From Candidatus Sumerlaeota bacterium (GTDB lineage: Bacteria; Sumerlaeota; Sumerlaeia; Sumerlaeales; Sumerlaeaceae), in assembly GCA_026398535.1 (NCBI GenBank), contig JAPLSQ010000019.1, positions 1-36,092 on the forward strand: a DNA stretch of 36,092 nt, read 5' to 3'. Shown in pieces: positions 3,602 through 26,467 of the stretch. Each line of letters begins with the position of its first letter. Positions within the stretch are counted from its first letter, which is position 1. The translations under genes were made by a program, and so were the position numbers. The notes under the pieces were generated by a model that had not been told where the DNA came from, ran no database searches, and worked only from the letters and a program-made list of their open reading frames with translations.

Positions 3602-5038
3602 TTAATAGCGGTAGTGCTCATCTTTGTAGGGGCCGTCAACCGGCACGCTGATGTAGCCGGCTTGCTCGGGCGTGAGCCTGGTCAGCTTCACCCCGAGCTG
3701 GTCAAGATGCAAACGCGCGACTTTCTCGTCGAGCACCTTGGGCAAACGGTAGACCTGCCGTTTGTACTTCCCGCTCTCGCGCTCTTTCCAAAGCTCAATT
3801 TGCGCAAGCGTCTGGTTGGTGAAGCTGTTGCTCATGACAAAACTCGGATGCCCCATGGCGCAGCCAAGGTTCACAAGACGTCCCTTGGCCAGCACCGTCA
3901 GGCGTTTGCCATTGGGCCATTCAATCTGATCAACCTGCGGCTTGATCTCGTGCGCCTTGAGTCGCGGGTCGGTATAGAGCGAATTCACCTGGATTTCCGA
4001 GTCGAAGTGGCCGATATTGCAAACGATGGCCTCGTGTTTCATCTTGTCCATGTGTTCGCGGGTGATGACATCGACATTGCCCGTAGCCGTGACAAAAATG
4101 TCGCCCCATGAGCAAGCATCATCCATCGTGACCACCTGGTAGCCTTCCATGGCGGCCTGAAGAGCGATAATGGGATCGATCTCGGTGACAAACACAACGG
4201 CGCCGAGACCGCGAAACGCCTGGGTGCAGCCTTTGCCCACATCGCCATATCCGCACACGACGCACTTCTTGCCCGCGATCATGACATCCGTGGCGCGTTT
4301 AATGCCGTCCATGAGCGATTCGCGGCAGCCGTAAAGATTGTCGAATTTGCTCTTGGTCACGGAATCATTCACATTGAACGCCGGAAAAAGCAACTTGCCT
4401 TCCTTGGACATAAGATAAAGGCGATGGACACCGGTCGTGGTCTCCTCGCTGACGCCCACAATGCCGGCGGCCATGACGCGCCAGAAGCGGGGATTTTCAT
4501 CGAGCGTGCGATTGAGCAGACGGTCGATGATTTCGATCTCCTCATTGTCAGTGCAGACGGCGGGCTTGCGGCCGGTCCGCTCGAATTCGATCTCGCGCTC
4601 GCAGCCGCGATGCACGAGCAGGGTGGCGTCGCCGCCGTCATCAACGATAAGCGTGGGGCCGGCCTCATGCGACAGGGCAAGCTTTGTGAACTCCCAGTAT
4701 TCCTCCAGCGTCTCGCCCTTGCAGGCAAACACTGGAATCCCGGTTGCCGCGATTGCCGCCGCCGCGTGATCCTGGGTTGAGTAGATGTTGCAGCTTGCCC
4801 AACGCACTTGAGCGCCAAGCTCGACGAGGGTCTCGATGAGCACGGCCGTTTGAATCGTCATGTGAAGCGACCCCGAAATGCGCGCGCCCGCCAGAGGTTT
4901 CAAGGGACCATACTCTCTGCGGGTGGCCATGAGACCGGGCATCTCATGCTCGGCCATGCGGATTTCATCCCTGCCCCAGCGGGACAGCGAGATGTCCTTA
5001 ATGCGATACTCGGAGGTTGCTGCTGCGACTGTTGACAT
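3602..5038 (-). CDS. ahcY: S-adenosyl-L-homocysteine hydrolase
   Basis: 478 residues, the long bacterial form. The enzyme splits S-adenosylhomocysteine to adenosine and homocysteine using bound NAD, clearing the product inhibitor of methyltransferases. Visible hallmarks are the substrate-site motif [16 protein letters not shown], the Rossmann NAD motif CGYGDVGKG near residue 263, the [14 protein letters not shown] block with the substrate-binding Lys/Asp, [10 protein letters not shown], and the conserved C-terminal KDEHYRY that reaches the NAD of the neighbouring subunit. GGAGA lies upstream of the ATG. It stands alone on this strand. The left copy of a 37-bp repeat begins 42 bases upstream, so its promoter must lie in or beside that repeat. 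No SAH-riboswitch-like structure is evident in the short AT-rich leader. Confidence 0.97.
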
Positions 5039-5079
5039 TCTTGTTTTGTCTCCTTTTATAATATTAAATGTTTATCATA

Positions 5080-5116
5080 CTAAAAGCTGTAACACGGAGT
5101 TGCGCAGAGGAGGCGC
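5080..5116. repeat. 37-bp direct repeat, left copy
   Basis: These 37 bases are identical to 5562-5598. The core has an internal period of about 12 bases built on CGGAGTTGCGCAGAG-like units and continues less exactly to about 5130 (GCAGAG repeats followed by an A-run). The copy lies between the 3' end of the GxxExxY gene and the 5' end of ahcY. Confidence 0.9.
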
Positions 5117-19149: not shown

Positions 19150-20559
19150 TCACAATTGATCCGATTGTTGAGGCTTTTCGCCCACACATACGGCGGAAAG
19201 CCCAAACGGAAGCGCGCAGACATTGAGCAGACGGCTGACCGGCATGAGAATTTTCTGCATGGTAATGTGGGATGGTTTGATCTGTTTTGAACAGAATATT
19301 TTTCCTGTCACGAACCAGCCGGCGGCGCCCAGGGGATTGAAATAGAAGGAGTCCGCGATGCGAAAACCGGCATCACGCATCTTCTGGCGCAGGTCCTCAA
19401 GCCCGTAACGGCGACAATGTCCCAGATTCGCATCCATTTTGCAGTAAAGTCCCGGCAGCGCGGGAACAAGCAGGATGCATCGCCCTCCGGGCTGAAGCAA
19501 ATCATAAAGATTCGCGAGGGCGCGCCTGTCGTCCTCGATGTGCTCAAGAACATTCAGGCACACGATCGAATCGGCGGAAAGCGCGCGCTGTTCCGGTGAC
19601 GGGGGCAGGTTGGCATCATAATAAAGAACGCGGATGTTTGACGCAACCGGCAGTTTGGCCCGCAGGCGCTCAAGGTAATCCTCGCGGCAGTCAGTCAGAA
19701 TGAGTTCCCGGCTGCTGTCAGCCCCCCCCTTGGCAAGATTTGGAATATTATTGCCTATTCCGCAGCCGATTTCCATCACGCGCCGTCCCAGGTGCGGCTC
19801 GATGTTGCGGAAGATCCATTGCGAGTAGGCGCCGAACGATTCGAGATTCTGGAGAGTCGTCTTGCCATAATCGCGGTAACGTCCGCGCGAATATTTCAGA
19901 ATGCACCAGATGGCGTTGATACCGTCGCGCCAGCCGACTTTTTTGCCCTCGGCGTAACTGCGGCCGTCATAGCAGATGCCCATCTCGAAAATCCTGATGT
20001 CGAGGCGGGCCAGCTTGGCGGTGATTTCCGGTTCGAAACCAAAACGCTCCTGCTCGATGTTGATCCGCTTGATGATGTCGGCCCTGACCATCTTGTAACA
20101 GGTTTCCATGTCGGTCAGGTTCAGGTTTGTGAACATGTTGGATAGCAGGGTCAGGAACTTATTGCCGACCGCATGCCAGAAATAGAGCACACGGTGGGCG
20201 CGGCCCGACTGGAAACGCGAGCCGTACACAACGTCGGCTTTGCCTTCAAAAATAGGTTGCAGAAGGCGGTGGTATTCCCCGGGATCATATTCAAGATCGG
20301 CATCCTGAATAATCACAACATCGCCGGTGACATATTGAATGCCCGTGCGAATGGCGGCTCCTTTGCCACGGTTCTTCTCCTGCAGGACGATCTTGTCGAC
20401 CAATGGTCGAAGGGAGTCATAGAGATCGCGGGTGCCGTCAGTGGAACAGTCATCGACGAGAATGATCTCCTTTTCGAGATCGACAGCCCGCACGCGTTCT
20501 ATGATTTTGCGCAGCGTGTGCGCTTCATTATAAACGGGGATGATAACACTAAGTTTCAT
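19150..20559 (-). CDS. Fusion of GT2 glycosyltransferase and SAM-dependent methyltransferase
   Basis: 469 residues. The first 225 or so are a GT-A family 2 transferase of the dolichyl/polyprenyl-phosphate mannose synthase kind: [30 protein letters not shown], the metal-binding QDADLEYDP and [10 protein letters not shown]. From residue about 255 a class I methyltransferase follows: [11 protein letters not shown] (SAM motif I), [19 protein letters not shown] and [15 protein letters not shown]. There is no membrane domain, so the enzyme is cytoplasmic or peripheral. It probably moves a sugar from a nucleotide donor to a polyprenyl phosphate; the target of the methyl group is unknown. It is transcribed divergently from the phosphatase-like gene. 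Confidence 0.9.
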
Positions 20560-20733: not shown

Positions 20734-21648
20734 GTGAACATCGACAAATCCGATAAAATCCTCATCCTGTTCATCGATACCGGCGACAACTGCCGGTGCC
20801 CGATGGCAAAAGGCTATTTGCTCAAACTGATTGAACAGCGGCGTATCACGCATATTGACATCCGCACGGCCGGCGTCATGACCCCGCACGGTCTATTACC
20901 CACGCCTGAAGCCGTGCAACTCCTGATGGAGGAGCAGGTCGATATCCGGCGTCACAGGTCAAGACCACTGACTGTTGACATGATCCGCCGGGCTGACCTG
21001 GTTCTCGGCATGACGCCTTTCCATGTTCAGATGGCGTATCGCATGATTGATGATGCCCGCCGCAAAACCTTCCTGCTCAAGGAATATGTCGGATGCGAAG
21101 GGCGCAATGTTCAGATACAGGACCCGATGGGCGGAACCTTGGAGATATTCAAAAAGGTCTTCGGCGCCATCAAAGCCTCGTTACAGAAACTGGTGGAGAT
21201 GGACATCATCAATATTCCGCCAAAGCGGACACAGGAAGCGCCAAGGGTTTCGGTAGCGGTCGTGGCCGTCGAGCAAGAGCAACCCGCGCCGCCGCGCAAG
21301 GCAGGCAGGCCCGGACGCAAACCGGTGAAAAAGGCTTTGAAGGTGAAAAAGGTTTTGAAGACGAAAAAGCCCAAGCCGGCCAAAACCGCACCCAGAAAAA
21401 AAACTGTCAGGGCAGCGGCAAAAGCAAAAGCGCCCCGGAAAAAGCGGGCATCGGCCGCCATAAAACCGGTCAGCGAGTACGCCATCAGGTCCGTCAAGAT
21501 ACCGGCATCGAAAAAGCCCTCAAGAAAGGCATCGCCGCCGGTCAAACCCAAGAAGGTCAAACAAGCAAGGGCGGCAGCGAAAACACCCCGCAAACCGGCC
21601 CCATCGAAAAAGCAAACAACTTCACTCAAGAAAGGAAAGAAAAGGTAA
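20734..21648 (+). CDS. LMW-phosphatase (YwlE-like) domain lacking catalytic Cys, fused to a histone-H1-like basic tail
   Basis: 304 residues from GTG 20734 (GGAGA about ten bases upstream). Residues 8-155 follow the low-molecular-weight phosphatase / arginine-phosphatase family: the P-loop region FIDTGDNCRCPMA, RTAGVMTPHG, LLMEEQVDIRRHRSRPLT, ADLVLGMT, FLLKEYVG and the DP loop D130-P131 in QDPMGGTLE. The family P-loop is C-T/L-G-N-x-C-R-S, and here the nucleophilic Cys is Asp15 while C20 and R21 stay, so normal phosphatase chemistry should be impossible. From about residue 162 the protein becomes a Lys/Arg/Ala/Pro-rich tail like histone H1 or AlgP, with an AT-hook-like AGRPGRKP at 190-197. 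A DNA- or RNA-binding scaffold, or phosphate-sensing pseudo-enzyme, is plausible. The parvulin gene starts one base after the stop. Confidence 0.85.
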   Translation: MNIDKSDKILILFIDTGDNCRCPMAKGYLLKLIEQRRITHIDIRTAGVMTPHGLLPTPEAVQLLMEEQVDIRRHRSRPLTVDMIRRADLVLGMTPFHVQMAYRMIDDARRKTFLLKEYVGCEGRNVQIQDPMGGTLEIFKKVFGAIKASLQKLVEMDIINIPPKRTQEAPRVSVAVVAVEQEQPAPPRKAGRPGRKPVKKALKVKKVLKTKKPKPAKTAPRKKTVRAAAKAKAPRKKRASAAIKPVSEYAIRSVKIPASKKPSRKASPPVKPKKVKQARAAAKTPRKPAPSKKQTTSLKKGKKR

Positions 21649-21649
21649 T

Positions 21650-23479
21650 ATGGCCACAACAACAACAGCCACGGGGAAATTGCTGAGCGGGCGCCTTTGC
21701 ATGGCGCTCCTCATCATGGCGTCGGTGGCGCTGTTTATCGCGCCGGCTGCCATGGCAGCCCCCAAACAATCCACAACTGAGACGAAAGAGGTCGCGGCTC
21801 AACCAGACAACCCGAAACTGGCCAAAATCGGCGATCACCTTGTGACGCAGGACGAGTTGAGCTCGTTTTCGATGCTGATTGAATTCGCGAAGGCGGGTCC
21901 AATGGCGGAATCGGGCGATGCTCTGAGCGATTATGCCCTGGCGATGCTTATCGACGACGTCTACACCACCATCCCCGCACAGATAAAATCTGACACTTCT
22001 GTTCCGTCGAAATACCGTTTTGCCTCGCAGCGCGGGCACCTGTTCAGGGCTATGCGCGAAAAAACGCTCAAATCCATCGATGTGTCGCGGGGGGAAATGG
22101 AGGAATGGTTCAGCAACAATTCCGGCCGTTACCAGGAACCCGAGCGCATCAAGGCGCGCCACCTTTTCATGCAGACATCCAAAGACAATCCCTCCAGCTC
22201 GCCCGAGCGTGTGCGCGAGCGGATGCTTAAGGTGAAACGCGCGGTCGACAAGAACACCACGTTCGGCGAGCTTGCCATGAAGTATTCCGAGGCTGGCAGC
22301 GGCGCCAAGGGCGGCGAAATCGGCTGGGTGTCATATCGCATGCCGATCGGACCGCAGAACAAGCCGATGAACATCGTTCTGGACGACGCGCTTTTCAAGC
22401 TCGAACCCGGCCAGGCCTCAGATATCTTAGAAACATCCTATGGTCTGCACATCGTTTTCGCGGAACAGCGCAACACGACAAGGACGCCCACGCTTGACGA
22501 TCTGATCACAAGCAGGATTTTGCCTTCGGCTGCCGCCAACGAGCGGCTCACCTCGCGCATCATGAGCCTGATCAGCGATACAAAGAAAAAACATAATGCC
22601 AAGGTGCTAGTCACCAGTCCCACGGCGGAACTGACCACCGACACAAAGGCTTTTGAGATCGACGGCAACGTTTTCACGGCTCATGCCCTTGAGCTCATTT
22701 ACGGTCCGCGGTTCACGAGCGCTTTCATGCGCTCGCGAACATCTCCCGAACGCGCCATGAAACTCCTGGAGGACGTGCTGGACACGGAGGCGTACCTGGC
22801 AGCCGCAATCGATGCCGGAGCAGACGCGACACCCGACATGGCGCGCGACTTGAACCTGCTCGGTCGTATTGAAAAAATGCGGACGCGTTTCAACGACATC
22901 GTGGCGCAGGCATACCAGACCAACGATGAGCAGGCGCGCGAACTCTATGAAAAGATGAAAGATCGCCTGCGGCGGCCAGAAGCATCCGGTTACATCATCA
23001 CCATCCAGCCTGAATCGGCCACCGGCACGGGCGCCCAGATGAAAGCCATGGAGGAGGCGCGTGTCAAGGCAGAGGAGACCGCCAGGAAATTGCGTGACGG
23101 CGCCGACGCCGAAAAAATTGCGCACGAGCTTTCAAAGGACAACCGCGCCTCGTCAGGCGGTCTGGTGGAACGGCATGTGATTGGGACAATGAACGATGAA
23201 GCAGGACGAAACTTCGACGGCATGGCCATGCAGCTTCAGAAAAAGGGCGATGTCAGCGATCCTCGTCAATTGCCCAACGGATTCGCCATCGCCGTGCTCG
23301 ATGAGCGCTGGGCTGGCGAGCCAACGCCCTTTGAGGACGCCAAACCAAGACTGATTCGCCAAGCGGCGACACAGAATGAAAACCGCGCCCGCGCCGACAT
23401 GATGAGCATGCTTGAAGCCTCCGGCAAAATCGAATGGCTCGATGGCGCAACAAAATACGGTAAAACACCCTCAAAATGA
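21650..23479 (+). CDS. Periplasmic peptidyl-prolyl isomerase/chaperone with two parvulin-like domains
   Basis: 609 residues. A signal peptide (about 1-37, hydrophobic LLIMASVALFIAPAAMA) sends it to the periplasm. A SurA/PpiD-like helical region leads to a first rotamase domain (about 163-270) with ERIKARHLFMQ, FGELAMKYSE, GGEIGWV and ETSYGLHIVF. A second, more divergent one (about 443-560) has SGYIITIQPE, IAHELSKDNRASSGGLVE and LPNGFAIAVLDE. Such proteins help fold outer-membrane or secreted proteins. Start at ATG 21650, with AAAGG just upstream, only one base past the preceding stop. The next gene, lptB, fits an envelope-biogenesis theme. Confidence 0.88.
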   Translation: MATTTTATGKLLSGRLCMALLIMASVALFIAPAAMAAPKQSTTETKEVAAQPDNPKLAKIGDHLVTQDELSSFSMLIEFAKAGPMAESGDALSDYALAMLIDDVYTTIPAQIKSDTSVPSKYRFASQRGHLFRAMREKTLKSIDVSRGEMEEWFSNNSGRYQEPERIKARHLFMQTSKDNPSSSPERVRERMLKVKRAVDKNTTFGELAMKYSEAGSGAKGGEIGWVSYRMPIGPQNKPMNIVLDDALFKLEPGQASDILETSYGLHIVFAEQRNTTRTPTLDDLITSRILPSAAANERLTSRIMSLISDTKKKHNAKVLVTSPTAELTTDTKAFEIDGNVFTAHALELIYGPRFTSAFMRSRTSPERAMKLLEDVLDTEAYLAAAIDAGADATPDMARDLNLLGRIEKMRTRFNDIVAQAYQTNDEQARELYEKMKDRLRRPEASGYIITIQPESATGTGAQMKAMEEARVKAEETARKLRDGADAEKIAHELSKDNRASSGGLVERHVIGTMNDEAGRNFDGMAMQLQKKGDVSDPRQLPNGFAIAVLDERWAGEPTPFEDAKPRLIRQAATQNENRARADMMSMLEASGKIEWLDGATKYGKTPSK

Positions 23480-23573: not shown

Positions 23574-24371
23574 GTGTCGCGAATTACCACAAAAAACCTG
23601 GTCAAAGAATTTGGCGGACGCCGTGTCGTCAACGAGGTGTGCATCAATATTCAAAAAGGCGAAATTGTGGGACTACTGGGTCCCAACGGCGCCGGCAAAT
23701 CAACGACATTCAATATGATCGTCGGCATGATCAAGCCCAACCAGGGCGCCATTTATTTCGACGATCAGGAAATCACGGGCATGCCGATGCATATGCGCGC
23801 GCGCATGGGCATCGGCTATCTGGCGCAGGACATGTCCATCTTCCGCAAGCTCACCGTGCAGGACAATATCATGGCCATTCTGCAGACGACCAAACTCTCG
23901 CGCGTCCAGCAGCGTGAGAAGTTGGACATGCTCATGGACGAACTTGGCATCACAAAACTTGCGCGCAGCATGGCCTACACGCTTTCAGGCGGCGAGCGCC
24001 GCCGCGTGGAAATCGCGCGCGCGCTTGTGCATGAGCCTGATTTTATCATGCTTGACGAACCGTTCTCCGGCGTTGATCCGCGCGCCGTCGAGGAGTTGCA
24101 GGACATCATCTACCACATGCAATCGCGCGGTCTTGGCGTGCTCATCACCGACCACAACGTCCGGGAAACCCTTACCGTGACCGACCGGTCGTATATCATC
24201 TTTGAAGGCAAGGTCATGCTTTCGGGCACGGCCAGCGAGCTTGTGAACAGTCCCGAAGCCCGCCAATATTATCTGGGTGAAAGGTTCACCATGGATACGA
24301 CCGAGGATGAACGCAAGCTGGCGGCGCGGGAGCGCCTTACGGGGCGCGCGGCGGCGGAGCGCCGGCAATGA
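23574..24371 (+). CDS. lptB: Lipopolysaccharide export ATP-binding protein LptB
   Basis: 265 residues. LptB powers extraction of LPS from the inner membrane as part of LptBFG. The Walker A GPNGAGKST, Q-loop YLAQDMSIF with the LptB-like RKLTVQDNI, signature LSGGERRRVEIARAL, Walker B IMLDEPFSGVDP and H-switch ITDHNVRETL are all present, and ITDHNVRETL is diagnostic for LptB. The last 25 residues (MDTTEDERKLAARERLTGR...) form a polar extension. Start is GTG with only a weak Shine-Dalgarno. Its stop overlaps the FHA gene start by ATGA, coupling the two. The lptFG and lptAC genes are not in the window. Confidence 0.94.
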   Translation: MSRITTKNLVKEFGGRRVVNEVCINIQKGEIVGLLGPNGAGKSTTFNMIVGMIKPNQGAIYFDDQEITGMPMHMRARMGIGYLAQDMSIFRKLTVQDNIMAILQTTKLSRVQQREKLDMLMDELGITKLARSMAYTLSGGERRRVEIARALVHEPDFIMLDEPFSGVDPRAVEELQDIIYHMQSRGLGVLITDHNVRETLTVTDRSYIIFEGKVMLSGTASELVNSPEARQYYLGERFTMDTTEDERKLAARERLTGRAAAERRQ

Positions 24372-26467
24372 GTTCCGCGGCCTGTCATCTGGTCCATCTC
24401 TCCGGACCGAGGGCCGGTGAGGCGGTCAACTTCGAGTCCGCGCGCATCACCATCGGCCGCGCTTCCAACTGCGATTTTCAGTTCGACGCGTATCGTGATC
24501 TCGCCGTGGCGTCGCATCATGCCGAAATTCTGCTCGATGACAACACCTTCTATATCCACGATCTTGACACGCGCGGCGGAACCTATGTCAACGGTCAGCG
24601 CGTCACCCAACATCATTCCCTCCAACACGAGGATTACATTCAGTTCGGCAAGAACGGTCCGGAGGCGATCTTCCGCATGGGCGCCGCCCTGCCCGGGGCG
24701 CAACCGTTGCCGCCCGATCCCCCCCAAGCGGGCGAACTGGAGTTGCTGACCGGTTCGGACGCGGGGAAATTGTTCCACGTCCTCGGCAACCAGCAAACAC
24801 GCATCGGACGGCGCGCCGACCTCGAGATACCGCTCGACCCGGCCGGAGACATGGTCGTCTCGGGCAACCACTGCACGATTGTCTTCGAAGGCGGTACGTT
24901 CATCCTGATCGACACAAGCCGCAATGGCACGTTCATCAACGGCCTGCCAGTTGAGGGGCGCGCGCTCCTGCGCGACGGCGACGTGATCACCCTGGGCGAG
25001 GGCGGCCCGCGCGCGCGCTTTCGCCTGCTTCCGCCGCGGCGCAATTATCCCAACAGGACACTTGGTTATCCAGATGTCTTCCGCGCGCCGGCGGCCCCGC
25101 GCCCCCCGGAACGAACACCAGTGCGCGCATCCTATGATGCGGCGCTCGCGGGCGCGCCGCCAAAACAGGCGCGCCTGAGCGAACCACCATCAGACGAATT
25201 ATCAAGAATCCGGCAATCCGCGCCCTCAGAACCTCAGCCTGAGCGCCGATCTTACGAGTCCGGTCAAACGAGTCCCGCGCAATCCCGTCCGCCGGAGGTC
25301 CCGCCGGCGGGCGCGCGCAACTCCGTCATGATTGCCAGCGGCGTGGTAGTTGTTCTGCTCATCATCGGCGGGCTGGCATGGTTCTTCACGCGGGATCGTC
25401 AAAAGACAGGCACAACTCCATCCACCACAGCGTCTCCTCTGACCAGCCACGAAAATGACATCAAGGATGGCGAAATGCTGCGTTGCGCGGGCGGAAACTT
25501 TTCCTACCGTTTGCCTCATGGATGGATCAAGCGCGAGGAAGGCGGTCTGGTCAGCATGGAATCGCCCGACAAGATGATTTCCGTTGATTACGCGCGCGAT
25601 GAACGCATGAACGAGCAGGCCGTCGCGGCGCTGGTCACTCAGGCCGTTGGGGGGGAGGCGAAAAAGCTGACGCAGAACAAAATCGGCGAAGTCACAATGC
25701 TCTCGTACGCGTCGAGGGGCGGCGGAAAAAGCTGCCAGGCCGTTCTGCACCAGCCATCGGGCGACACGCCGGGAATGGCATTTATCGAGGCTCCGGACGA
25801 GGTTTTTCAGAAACTCTCCGACTCGGCGCTGAACGCGTTGACGATGAGTGAGTTCAAAATGCAACGCATCGCCGCGCGCGCCGGCGGATTGCCCGCGCCA
25901 CAGCCCGCCCAGCCGGCTGTTTCGCCGACGCCGGCCCCAACACCGGTCGTCACGCCCGCCCCGGCGCCCGCGCCAACCACAAAACCCGCCGCAATTCCGA
26001 CGCCAGCGCCGGAAACCACAACAGGCACTGAAGGAGCGCAAACGATCGCCAGCAAAACACTTGGCGCGACGCTGTTGCTGCCGAATGACTGGACTGGCAG
26101 CGTGGACGAAAAGCAGGGCGTGATCATCCTCCGCACGCCCAGCGGCGTCGACGTCCGGCTCGCGCGGGATAAAAAACAGGTCAAGCCAGATGAAATATTC
26201 GCGGCCATGAGGAAGGACAATTGGGACATCTTCAAGCGCGAGATCAACCTTGGCCAAAGCAAAAACAAATACAGCATTGCCGAAATGAGGCAGGGCGAGA
26301 TGCGTCTGGTGCTTGTGCTGGTCGCCCAGTCTGACGGTTCGACACTGATTATATACGCGACACACGAAGGAAAGTTCCAGGATGCCGAACGGGCTGACGT
26401 GGCAAAAATCGTGAACCAGTTGACCGTGTCAAAGATGGAAACCGGCGAATCGCAGACACCGCCTTAG
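24368..26467 (+). CDS. Membrane protein with two FHA domains and two periplasmic DcrB/PsbP-like domains
   Basis: 699 residues. Two cytoplasmic forkhead-associated domains come first: FHA1 (about 8-100; IGRASNCDFQFD, VASHHAEI, GGTYVNG) and FHA2 (about 118-222; RIGRRADLEIPLD, VSGNHCTI, RNGTFINGLPVEGRALL). FHA domains bind phosphothreonine. A Pro-rich linker (about 225-317) leads to one transmembrane helix (about 320-342, VMIASGVVVVLLIIGGLAWFF). Outside are two similar modules (about 372-500 and 558-690; FSYRLPHGWI and ATLLLPNDWTG) separated by a Pro/Ala/Thr spacer (about 506-556); the modules resemble DcrB/PsbP-like folds. It may sense phosphorylation inside and connect it to the envelope. Overlap with lptB suggests joint expression. 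No Ser/Thr kinase gene is in the window. Confidence 0.85.
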   Translation: MSSAACHLVHLSGPRAGEAVNFESARITIGRASNCDFQFDAYRDLAVASHHAEILLDDNTFYIHDLDTRGGTYVNGQRVTQHHSLQHEDYIQFGKNGPEAIFRMGAALPGAQPLPPDPPQAGELELLTGSDAGKLFHVLGNQQTRIGRRADLEIPLDPAGDMVVSGNHCTIVFEGGTFILIDTSRNGTFINGLPVEGRALLRDGDVITLGEGGPRARFRLLPPRRNYPNRTLGYPDVFRAPAAPRPPERTPVRASYDAALAGAPPKQARLSEPPSDELSRIRQSAPSEPQPERRSYESGQTSPAQSRPPEVPPAGARNSVMIASGVVVVLLIIGGLAWFFTRDRQKTGTTPSTTASPLTSHENDIKDGEMLRCAGGNFSYRLPHGWIKREEGGLVSMESPDKMISVDYARDERMNEQAVAALVTQAVGGEAKKLTQNKIGEVTMLSYASRGGGKSCQAVLHQPSGDTPGMAFIEAPDEVFQKLSDSALNALTMSEFKMQRIAARAGGLPAPQPAQPAVSPTPAPTPVVTPAPAPAPTTKPAAIPTPAPETTTGTEGAQTIASKTLGATLLLPNDWTGSVDEKQGVIILRTPSGVDVRLARDKKQVKPDEIFAAMRKDNWDIFKREINLGQSKNKYSIAEMRQGEMRLVLVLVAQSDGSTLIIYATHEGKFQDAERADVAKIVNQLTVSKMETGESQTPP

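Follow-up and report, generated by a model that had tools for sequence, protein, structure and literature searches.

The gene at positions 20734..21648 of the window (the whole stretch of 36,092 nucleotides that was analysed) encodes a YwlE-like phosphatase domain, in which aspartate stands in place of the catalytic cysteine, followed by a basic tail. From sequence comparison we tentatively predict, at somewhat less than an even chance, that this Asp-type protein is a former eraser that now reads phosphoarginine and is likely tethered to DNA. The YwlE-type domain, with Cys exchanged for Asp, would bind phosphoarginine residues of proteins but leave the phosphate in place, and the basic tail would hold the protein on DNA, at the AT-rich minor groove where AT-hooks occur. 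The former eraser of the McsB mark would in this way associate with marked proteins from its place on DNA, and perhaps gather, protect or signal phosphoarginine-marked DNA-binding proteins at the nucleoid. The features of the window are as follows.

20734..21648, + strand: gene for the Asp-type YwlE-like putative pseudophosphatase with basic tail (304 aa, GTG start, reading frame open)
20764..21192, + strand: LMWPc (YwlE-type) domain, residues 11-153 (PF01451)
20776..20799, + strand: P-loop DTGDNCRC, residues 15-22 (YwlE alignment, 151 aligned domain rows, conservation)
20776-20778, + strand: codon of Asp15 at the nucleophile position, within the P-loop
21121..21126, + strand: Asp130-Pro131, retained general-acid loop (Asp in 60/60 Asp, 79/79 class Cys and 6/6 Ser rows of the alignment described below)
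21199..21645, + strand: basic tail, predicted disordered, residues 156-304 (composition; AlphaFold pLDDT block means 48-68 after residue 170)
21292..21324, + strand: AT-hook-like string PRKAGRPGRKP, not a strict RGRP core (motif search)
21650..23479, + strand: gene for a PpiC-type peptidyl-prolyl isomerase, 609 aa, with a signal-peptide-like start as judged by eye (Pfam match)

Residues 11-153 matched PF01451 (LMWPc) with an E-value of 1.4e-21 and 77.7 bits (cut-off 23.2), and the nearest solved structure was that of B. subtilis YwlE (E 6.9e-24), the phosphatase opposing McsB (PMC8370763, accessible part). Alignment of the P-loops (DTGDNCRC in the window protein, CTGNTCRS in YwlE) placed Asp15 at the nucleophile site, with Arg21 and Asp130-Pro131 retained, and confirmed the preliminary description, in which an LMW-PTP/YwlE-like domain with exactly these residues had been proposed. 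The protein has the LMW-PTP fold, and the catalytic Cys of C(X)4CR(S/T) is absent (Asp15). Two further P-loop residues differ from the Cys-bearing relatives: residue 19, Thr in the relatives, is Asn19, and residue 22, Ser (Gly in some) in the relatives, is Cys22. The PX5 position is described as Thr for phosphoarginine and Ile for phosphotyrosine, and tyrosine LMW-PTPs as having a DPY loop (PMC8001253, accessible part). The window protein lacks the Thr of arginine phosphatases at PX5 (Asn19), and this position is Asn in 33, Ile in two and Thr in one of 36 non-redundant Asp rows; no test of such a Thr-to-Asn change at the selectivity position was found in the accessible portion of the literature searched.

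Other identities of the window protein were considered. A tyrosine LMW-PTP was rejected, as the protein has DTGDNCRC and DPM and not Cys, Ile at PX5 and a DPY loop, and arsenate reductase ArsC was rejected with 36.9 and 25.1 bits for TIGR02691 and TIGR02689 (cut-offs 174.3 and 157.6). Cys22 lies next to the retained Cys20 (CRC; Arg21-Cys22 at window positions 20794-20799) in 32/36 non-redundant Asp rows; at residue 22 the Cys relatives carry Ser, Gly or Asn. A shift of the nucleophile to Cys22 was set aside, since Ala or Gly is found there in 6/60 Asp rows and Asp15 is invariant in the clade.

The distribution of the protein was followed in 40 genomes of the phylum Candidatus Sumerlaeota, 39 of which belong to the class and eight to the family of the window, Sumerlaeaceae (f1). 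In 31/39 class genomes the match was strong (E at most 5.1e-42). All seven Sumerlaeaceae genomes with the gene, separate assemblies among them, have Asp at the nucleophile position, and the frame is open in each. The gene was also found in 24 class genomes outside this family, with Cys retained in 20 and Ser in four (two in f10, one each in f11 and f3). A sequencing error or single mutant is thereby rejected: homologues with Cys, named in the preliminary description as a sign of such a case, were found in other families. The class genomes without a strong match were G006, G011, G018, G020, G025, G027, G035 and G036 (completeness 58-82%), and G006, the eighth Sumerlaeaceae genome (66% complete), gave no match to the Asp-type protein at all. 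A wider genome collection yielded 14 loci, 12 of them from Sumerlaeota and the others from Bacillus pumilus and an epsilonproteobacterial relative (32-34% identity).

The Ser forms represent a second type of nucleophile loss in the class (STGNICRS, STGDTCRS, STGDTCRA, STGNTCRS) and have basic tails too. They were found in G016, G022, G017 and G009 (L020, L021, L031, L032) and in the proteins P0106, P0107, P0125, P0127, P0141 and P0142; all four genomes possess a McsB-type kinase.

For comparison of the nucleophile states, 151 rows were aligned, consisting of 37 genome rows (31 class, six outgroup) and 114 proteins from the best 120 of 216; the window protein itself (P0002) and five proteins without a P-loop (P0029, P0031, P0033, P0035, P0037) were dropped. 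The rows were labelled Asp (60), Cys (85; 79 class, six outgroup) or Ser (6), some genome and protein rows being the same protein. This first protein search took lengths of 0.55-1.75 of the query, a range that tail-less relatives could escape. A second search (alignment A2) took short proteins too (best 120 of at least 281), and the 26 new rows among the matches listed, which were kept outside the trees and motif counts, comprised four Asp, four Ser, 17 Cys and one without a P-loop. Among the matches listed, P0124 (158 aa, from a 585-base contig) was the sole new row with fewer than 25 tail residues.

In a 72-row tree built without the P-loop columns, 24 non-redundant Asp rows formed one clade (100/99). 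A conserved Cys-to-Asp clade with basic tails, the search for which had been suggested in the preliminary description, was thus recovered. A quick 105-row tree agrees, with 34 Asp rows together (SH-aLRT 98), and the C/D/S label needed 6 changes on the 72-row tree compared to 25.5 in shuffles. The Asp rows P0087 and P0096 (DTGDICRC) were placed outside the 24-row clade; a grouping of all 26 was not rejected (AU p 0.238), nor was a grouping of five Ser rows (AU p 0.264).

The 24-row Asp clade has a tree length of 7.52 changes per average column and a mean of 4.28 changes per column, and 27/150 columns were unchanged, including Asp15, Thr16, Gly17, Cys20, Arg21, Asp130 and Pro131. Mean column entropy was 1.13 in both the Asp and the Cys group (36 and 56 non-redundant rows), and the columns fixed differently between the two groups were 15 (D/C), 19 (N/T) and 139 (F/Y). 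Arg21 and Asp130-Pro131 were present in 36/36 non-redundant Asp rows. In the domain, pN was 0.17 and pS 0.69 for G000/G005, and 0.09 and 0.77 for G001/G007, with silent sites saturated or nearly so. Since conservation equals that of the Cys group and pN is far below pS, the Asp-type is a maintained protein and not a wreck; it combines what is generally asked of a pseudophosphatase, a phosphatase fold without the catalytic residue that is conserved under selection. A neutral remnant, i.e. a decaying phosphatase gene that is being lost, is highly improbable. The loss of the nucleophile, the Ser at the same site in f10, f11 and f3 and the missing match in the incomplete genome G006 would fit with decay, but the frames that stay open in the whole family, the conservation, the low pN, the fixation of Asp alone and the constant partner gene described below all argue against it.

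Conservation of the pocket can also be read in favor of an enzyme. Asp15 might act as a weak nucleophile or base together with Arg21 and Asp130, making the Asp form a slow, longer-lasting or oxidation-resistant arginine phosphatase. Although rather improbable in our view, this is the main rival to the reader, given that Asp130 is kept and that Asp is the sole replacement in the clade. A slow enzyme would account for a kinase that persists in genomes in which no Cys-bearing YwlE-type copy was found, and is consistent with the retention of the other catalytic landmarks (Asp130 in 60/60 rows) and with the fixation of Asp and no other residue throughout a deep clade. The C215D form of PTP1B reportedly keeps weak activity; its characterisation and crystallisation are on record in the accessible literature. 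However, the covalent intermediate in the LMW-PTP family is formed by cysteine (PMC8001253, accessible part), and no natural LMW-PTP member with an Asp nucleophile was found in the accessible portion of the literature searched. Moreover, the Ser-type rows keep Asp130 too (6/6), so that its retention alone does not show catalysis. For the DNA-tethered reader, we infer that catalysis is lost in the Asp form and that the pocket still binds phosphoarginine, with a polar Asn at the Thr position of arginine phosphatases. Two properties of this pocket speak against a reader: the general acid Asp130, kept in every Asp row, would be superfluous for a pure reader, and Asp at the pocket floor puts a charge where the phosphate should sit (the active Cys, too, is charged, being a thiolate).

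The tail of the window protein comprises about 150 residues with 33% K+R and 4% D+E, in agreement with the Lys/Arg-rich tail noted earlier. A tail of at least 25 residues was present in 60/60 Asp, 79/79 class Cys and 6/6 Ser rows and in 0/6 outgroup rows. Since Cys and Ser rows of the class have basic tails too, the tail predates the loss of the nucleophile. The preliminary description had treated tail and loss as one combination, and its interpretation is therefore supported in part: both are found together in the Asp clade, but the tail is older and did not arise with the loss. The median net charge of the tail was +30 in Asp and +19 in Cys rows. It exceeded +3 in 57/60 Asp rows (exceptions -5, -2 and +1), which bears out the expected conservation of tail composition, and two exceptions with +3 or less occurred among the Cys rows. 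The sequence of the tail changes fast and its composition mostly stays (tail pN 0.46 and 0.39 in two Asp pairs).

Three AT-hook patterns, chosen after the remark in the preliminary description and inspection of the tails, were searched in the aligned rows. The strict RGRP core was detected in 21/60 Asp, 0/79 Cys and 0/6 Ser rows, compared to an average of 0.21 rows in shuffled Asp tails, and often occurred two or three times per tail. On the 72-row tree, RGRP is present in 10 rows and needs 4 changes, the rows being related and not independent. GRP with K/R up to three residues before it was found in 25/60 Asp, 0/79 Cys and 0/6 Ser rows, and the loosest pattern in 25/60, 1/79 and 0/6. The AT-hook-like AGRPGRKP pointed out earlier exists in the window tail and RGRP in part of the clade, but the window tail itself has this weaker form and no RGRP, and RGRP is lacking in 39/60 Asp rows. 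With E-values up to 1 allowed, the window protein was not matched by Pfam AT_hook (3/70 scanned members matched, best E 0.0053), nor by PF07382 (HC2), which matched 4/70 members; elsewhere in the family genomes PF07382 produced weak matches in 4/8, none above the cut-off.

These tails would also suit a pseudoenzyme scaffold with an unused pocket, in which the surface of the fold binds a protein (McsB, a Clp unfoldase or other) and the tail anchors the protein to polyanions in general (RNA, ribosomes or polyphosphate) instead of to DNA. We consider such a scaffold unlikely. The much faster evolution of the tails than of the domain, with mainly composition kept, and the basic tails shared by Cys, Asp and Ser rows point in its direction, and AlgP, which is histone-H1-like, acts on polyphosphate granules according to the accessible part of the literature. 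On the other hand, the pocket residues belong to the unchanged columns, which argues for use of the pocket, and among the rows compared RGRP cores are confined to the Asp group. For the phosphoarginine reader, the tail is inferred to bind DNA. Points against it are that the tails are common to the Cys-bearing cousins and so need not serve DNA, that the window tail and most other Asp tails are devoid of RGRP with few Pfam AT_hook matches, and that three Asp tails have a net charge of +1 or less.

Protein arginine phosphorylation is known mainly from Gram-positives, with McsB as writer, YwlE as eraser and ClpC as degradation receptor. A McsB-type arginine kinase (PF00217) was found in 8/8 Sumerlaeaceae and 34/39 class genomes, and all 11 genomes with Asp or Ser at the nucleophile position carry it. 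In the genome of the window, mcsB follows a McsA-like gene on a contig other than that of the window. The matches to the NCBIfam models lie below the curated cut-offs (McsB: E 6e-112, 374.1 bits, cut-off 385; McsA: 123.5 bits, cut-off 210), and the best solved match of the kinase is the protein-arginine kinase 6fh1. NEEDH is retained in 7/8 Sumerlaeaceae copies; five of these seven carry CPTN or CPSN at the CPTN motif, and the other two (G001, G007) CITN or CTTN. Both motifs were taken as sites of catalytic residues. The McsB of G006 (L061, about 4152-5111, - strand) is the most divergent copy of the family, with 28% identity to that of the window's genome and NGRDH and RPED at these sites. 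G006 (66% complete) is without the Asp-type protein and without its PpiC partner, which hints at a joint loss.

Proteins with a Clp N-domain were detected in 8/8 Sumerlaeaceae genomes by a match that does not separate ClpC from ClpA or ClpB. CtsR, the known DNA-binding target of McsB in Bacillus, was found in 0/8. The 13 other PF01451 matches in the family were sorted by eye into six with C[ML]GNICRS and a DPY loop, which are separate genes in 6/8 genomes and not in G000, and seven arsenate-reductase-like proteins with CVENSNRS or CTGNSCRS P-loops. In G000 (contig C8), an ArsC-like protein of 121 aa (L002, 1375-1740, - strand) has an intact CVENSNRS P-loop and lacks the middle of the domain; its gene is flanked by those of an ArsR-like regulator and an ACR3-like permease (both named by eye). 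No Cys-bearing YwlE-type copy was found in the eight Sumerlaeaceae genomes searched, and the kinase is still present. The ancestor of the Asp form was of the arginine-phosphatase type specifically, and the retained McsB-type kinase points to a likely ligand. The position of mcsB on another contig, the CITN/CTTN motif in two genomes and the lack of CtsR in the family weigh against a reader.

The compact gene run with an adjacent parvulin-type gene, as given in the preliminary description, was corroborated: the PpiC-type gene begins one base past the stop codon of the Asp-type gene. It lies directly downstream of the Asp gene in all seven Sumerlaeaceae genomes with this gene, the window included, and full-length PpiC relatives (E 2.7e-111 or better) are found in exactly these 7/40 genomes, with the next match at 3.1e-15. 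Among the genomes searched, the Asp gene and the PpiC gene therefore constitute a two-gene unit peculiar to Sumerlaeaceae. A promoter/terminator scan gave three promoter-like sites compared to 1.3 in shuffles. The neighborhood was further compared at 20 loci by means of three proteins from L046 that Pfam identifies as LptF/LptG permease, RpiB and serine hydroxymethyltransferase (GlyA). At the 14 loci of other families, two of which (L044, L051) are cut by a nearby contig end, the nearest upstream gene is of the lptF/G type in 12, and the downstream genes include glyA in 10 and rpiB in four. lptF/G, rpiB and glyA are absent from all six Sumerlaeaceae loci in this test, which did not include the window, and Pfam did not detect them among the eight neighboring window genes scanned. 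The Ser-type f10 loci L049 and L050 keep the complete lptF/G-rpiB-glyA set; because they keep the lptF/G-glyA setting, relocation accompanies the Asp form and not the f10 Ser form.

Two other regions of the window were observed in the vicinity. Positions 19150-20559 (- strand) encode a protein that joins a glycosyltransferase family 2 domain and a methyltransferase domain. At 23574-26467 (+ strand) lie two genes that overlap by 4 bases, the first for an ABC ATPase, LptB-like by eye, and the second for a protein of 699 residues in which there are two FHA stretches; the FHA protein had no match in the six other Sumerlaeaceae loci.

Compared to YwlE/PtpB, the Asp-type protein differs by the missing nucleophile Cys, Asn for Thr at PX5, Cys for Ser after Arg, the 150-residue basic tail and a different gene neighborhood. 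With pseudophosphatases of the PTP superfamily (PTPRU, receptor D2 domains) it has in common a phosphatase fold with a broken active site; as far as their accessible literature goes, these are animal classical or dual-specificity PTPs, whereas the Asp-type protein has the bacterial LMW-PTP fold with Asp and a basic tail and occurs in genomes with an arginine kinase. STYX and MK-STYX are further pseudophosphatases of the PTP superfamily. A Lys/Ala/Pro-rich tail is common to AT-hook (HMGA-like) and histone-H1-like proteins (AlgP, chlamydial HC2), and RGRP with basic flanks occurs in about a third of the Asp rows, but in the Asp-type protein the tail is joined to a phosphatase-derived domain, and the window protein has no match to the Pfam models HC2 and AT_hook. 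The N-domain of ClpC is a non-enzymatic phosphoarginine receptor linked to degradation and not to DNA. It would be the nearest functional parallel to the proposed reader, with an unrelated fold. No protein like the Asp-type one was found in the literature on pseudophosphatases, phosphoarginine and Sumerlaeota that was accessible, mostly outside subscription journals, and the main text of the Sumerlaeota paper PMC8092238 does not mention McsB, histone or AT-hook.

An eraser turned reader is the simplest account, because the pocket is constrained as in the Cys forms, the nucleophile is gone, the writer is present and a motif for the DNA minor groove occurs in part of the clade. It is possible, though on balance doubtful, that in the whole family the sole YwlE-type arginine phosphatase became a phosphoarginine reader tethered to DNA, through a Cys-to-Asp exchange, a re-tuned P-loop, AT-hooks added to the older tail and a new PpiC unit, with the kinase kept. 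Database records labelled 'protein-tyrosine-phosphatase' can be proteins without the catalytic cysteine. A little-known phylum possesses the writer, and in one of its families the sole eraser-type gene found has lost the nucleophile, kept the pocket residues and partly carries DNA-binding motifs, which raises the question whether phosphoarginine on DNA-bound proteins serves bacteria as a mark that can be read. If true, the Asp-type protein of Sumerlaeaceae would be the first phosphoarginine reader derived from its eraser and acting at the nucleoid.
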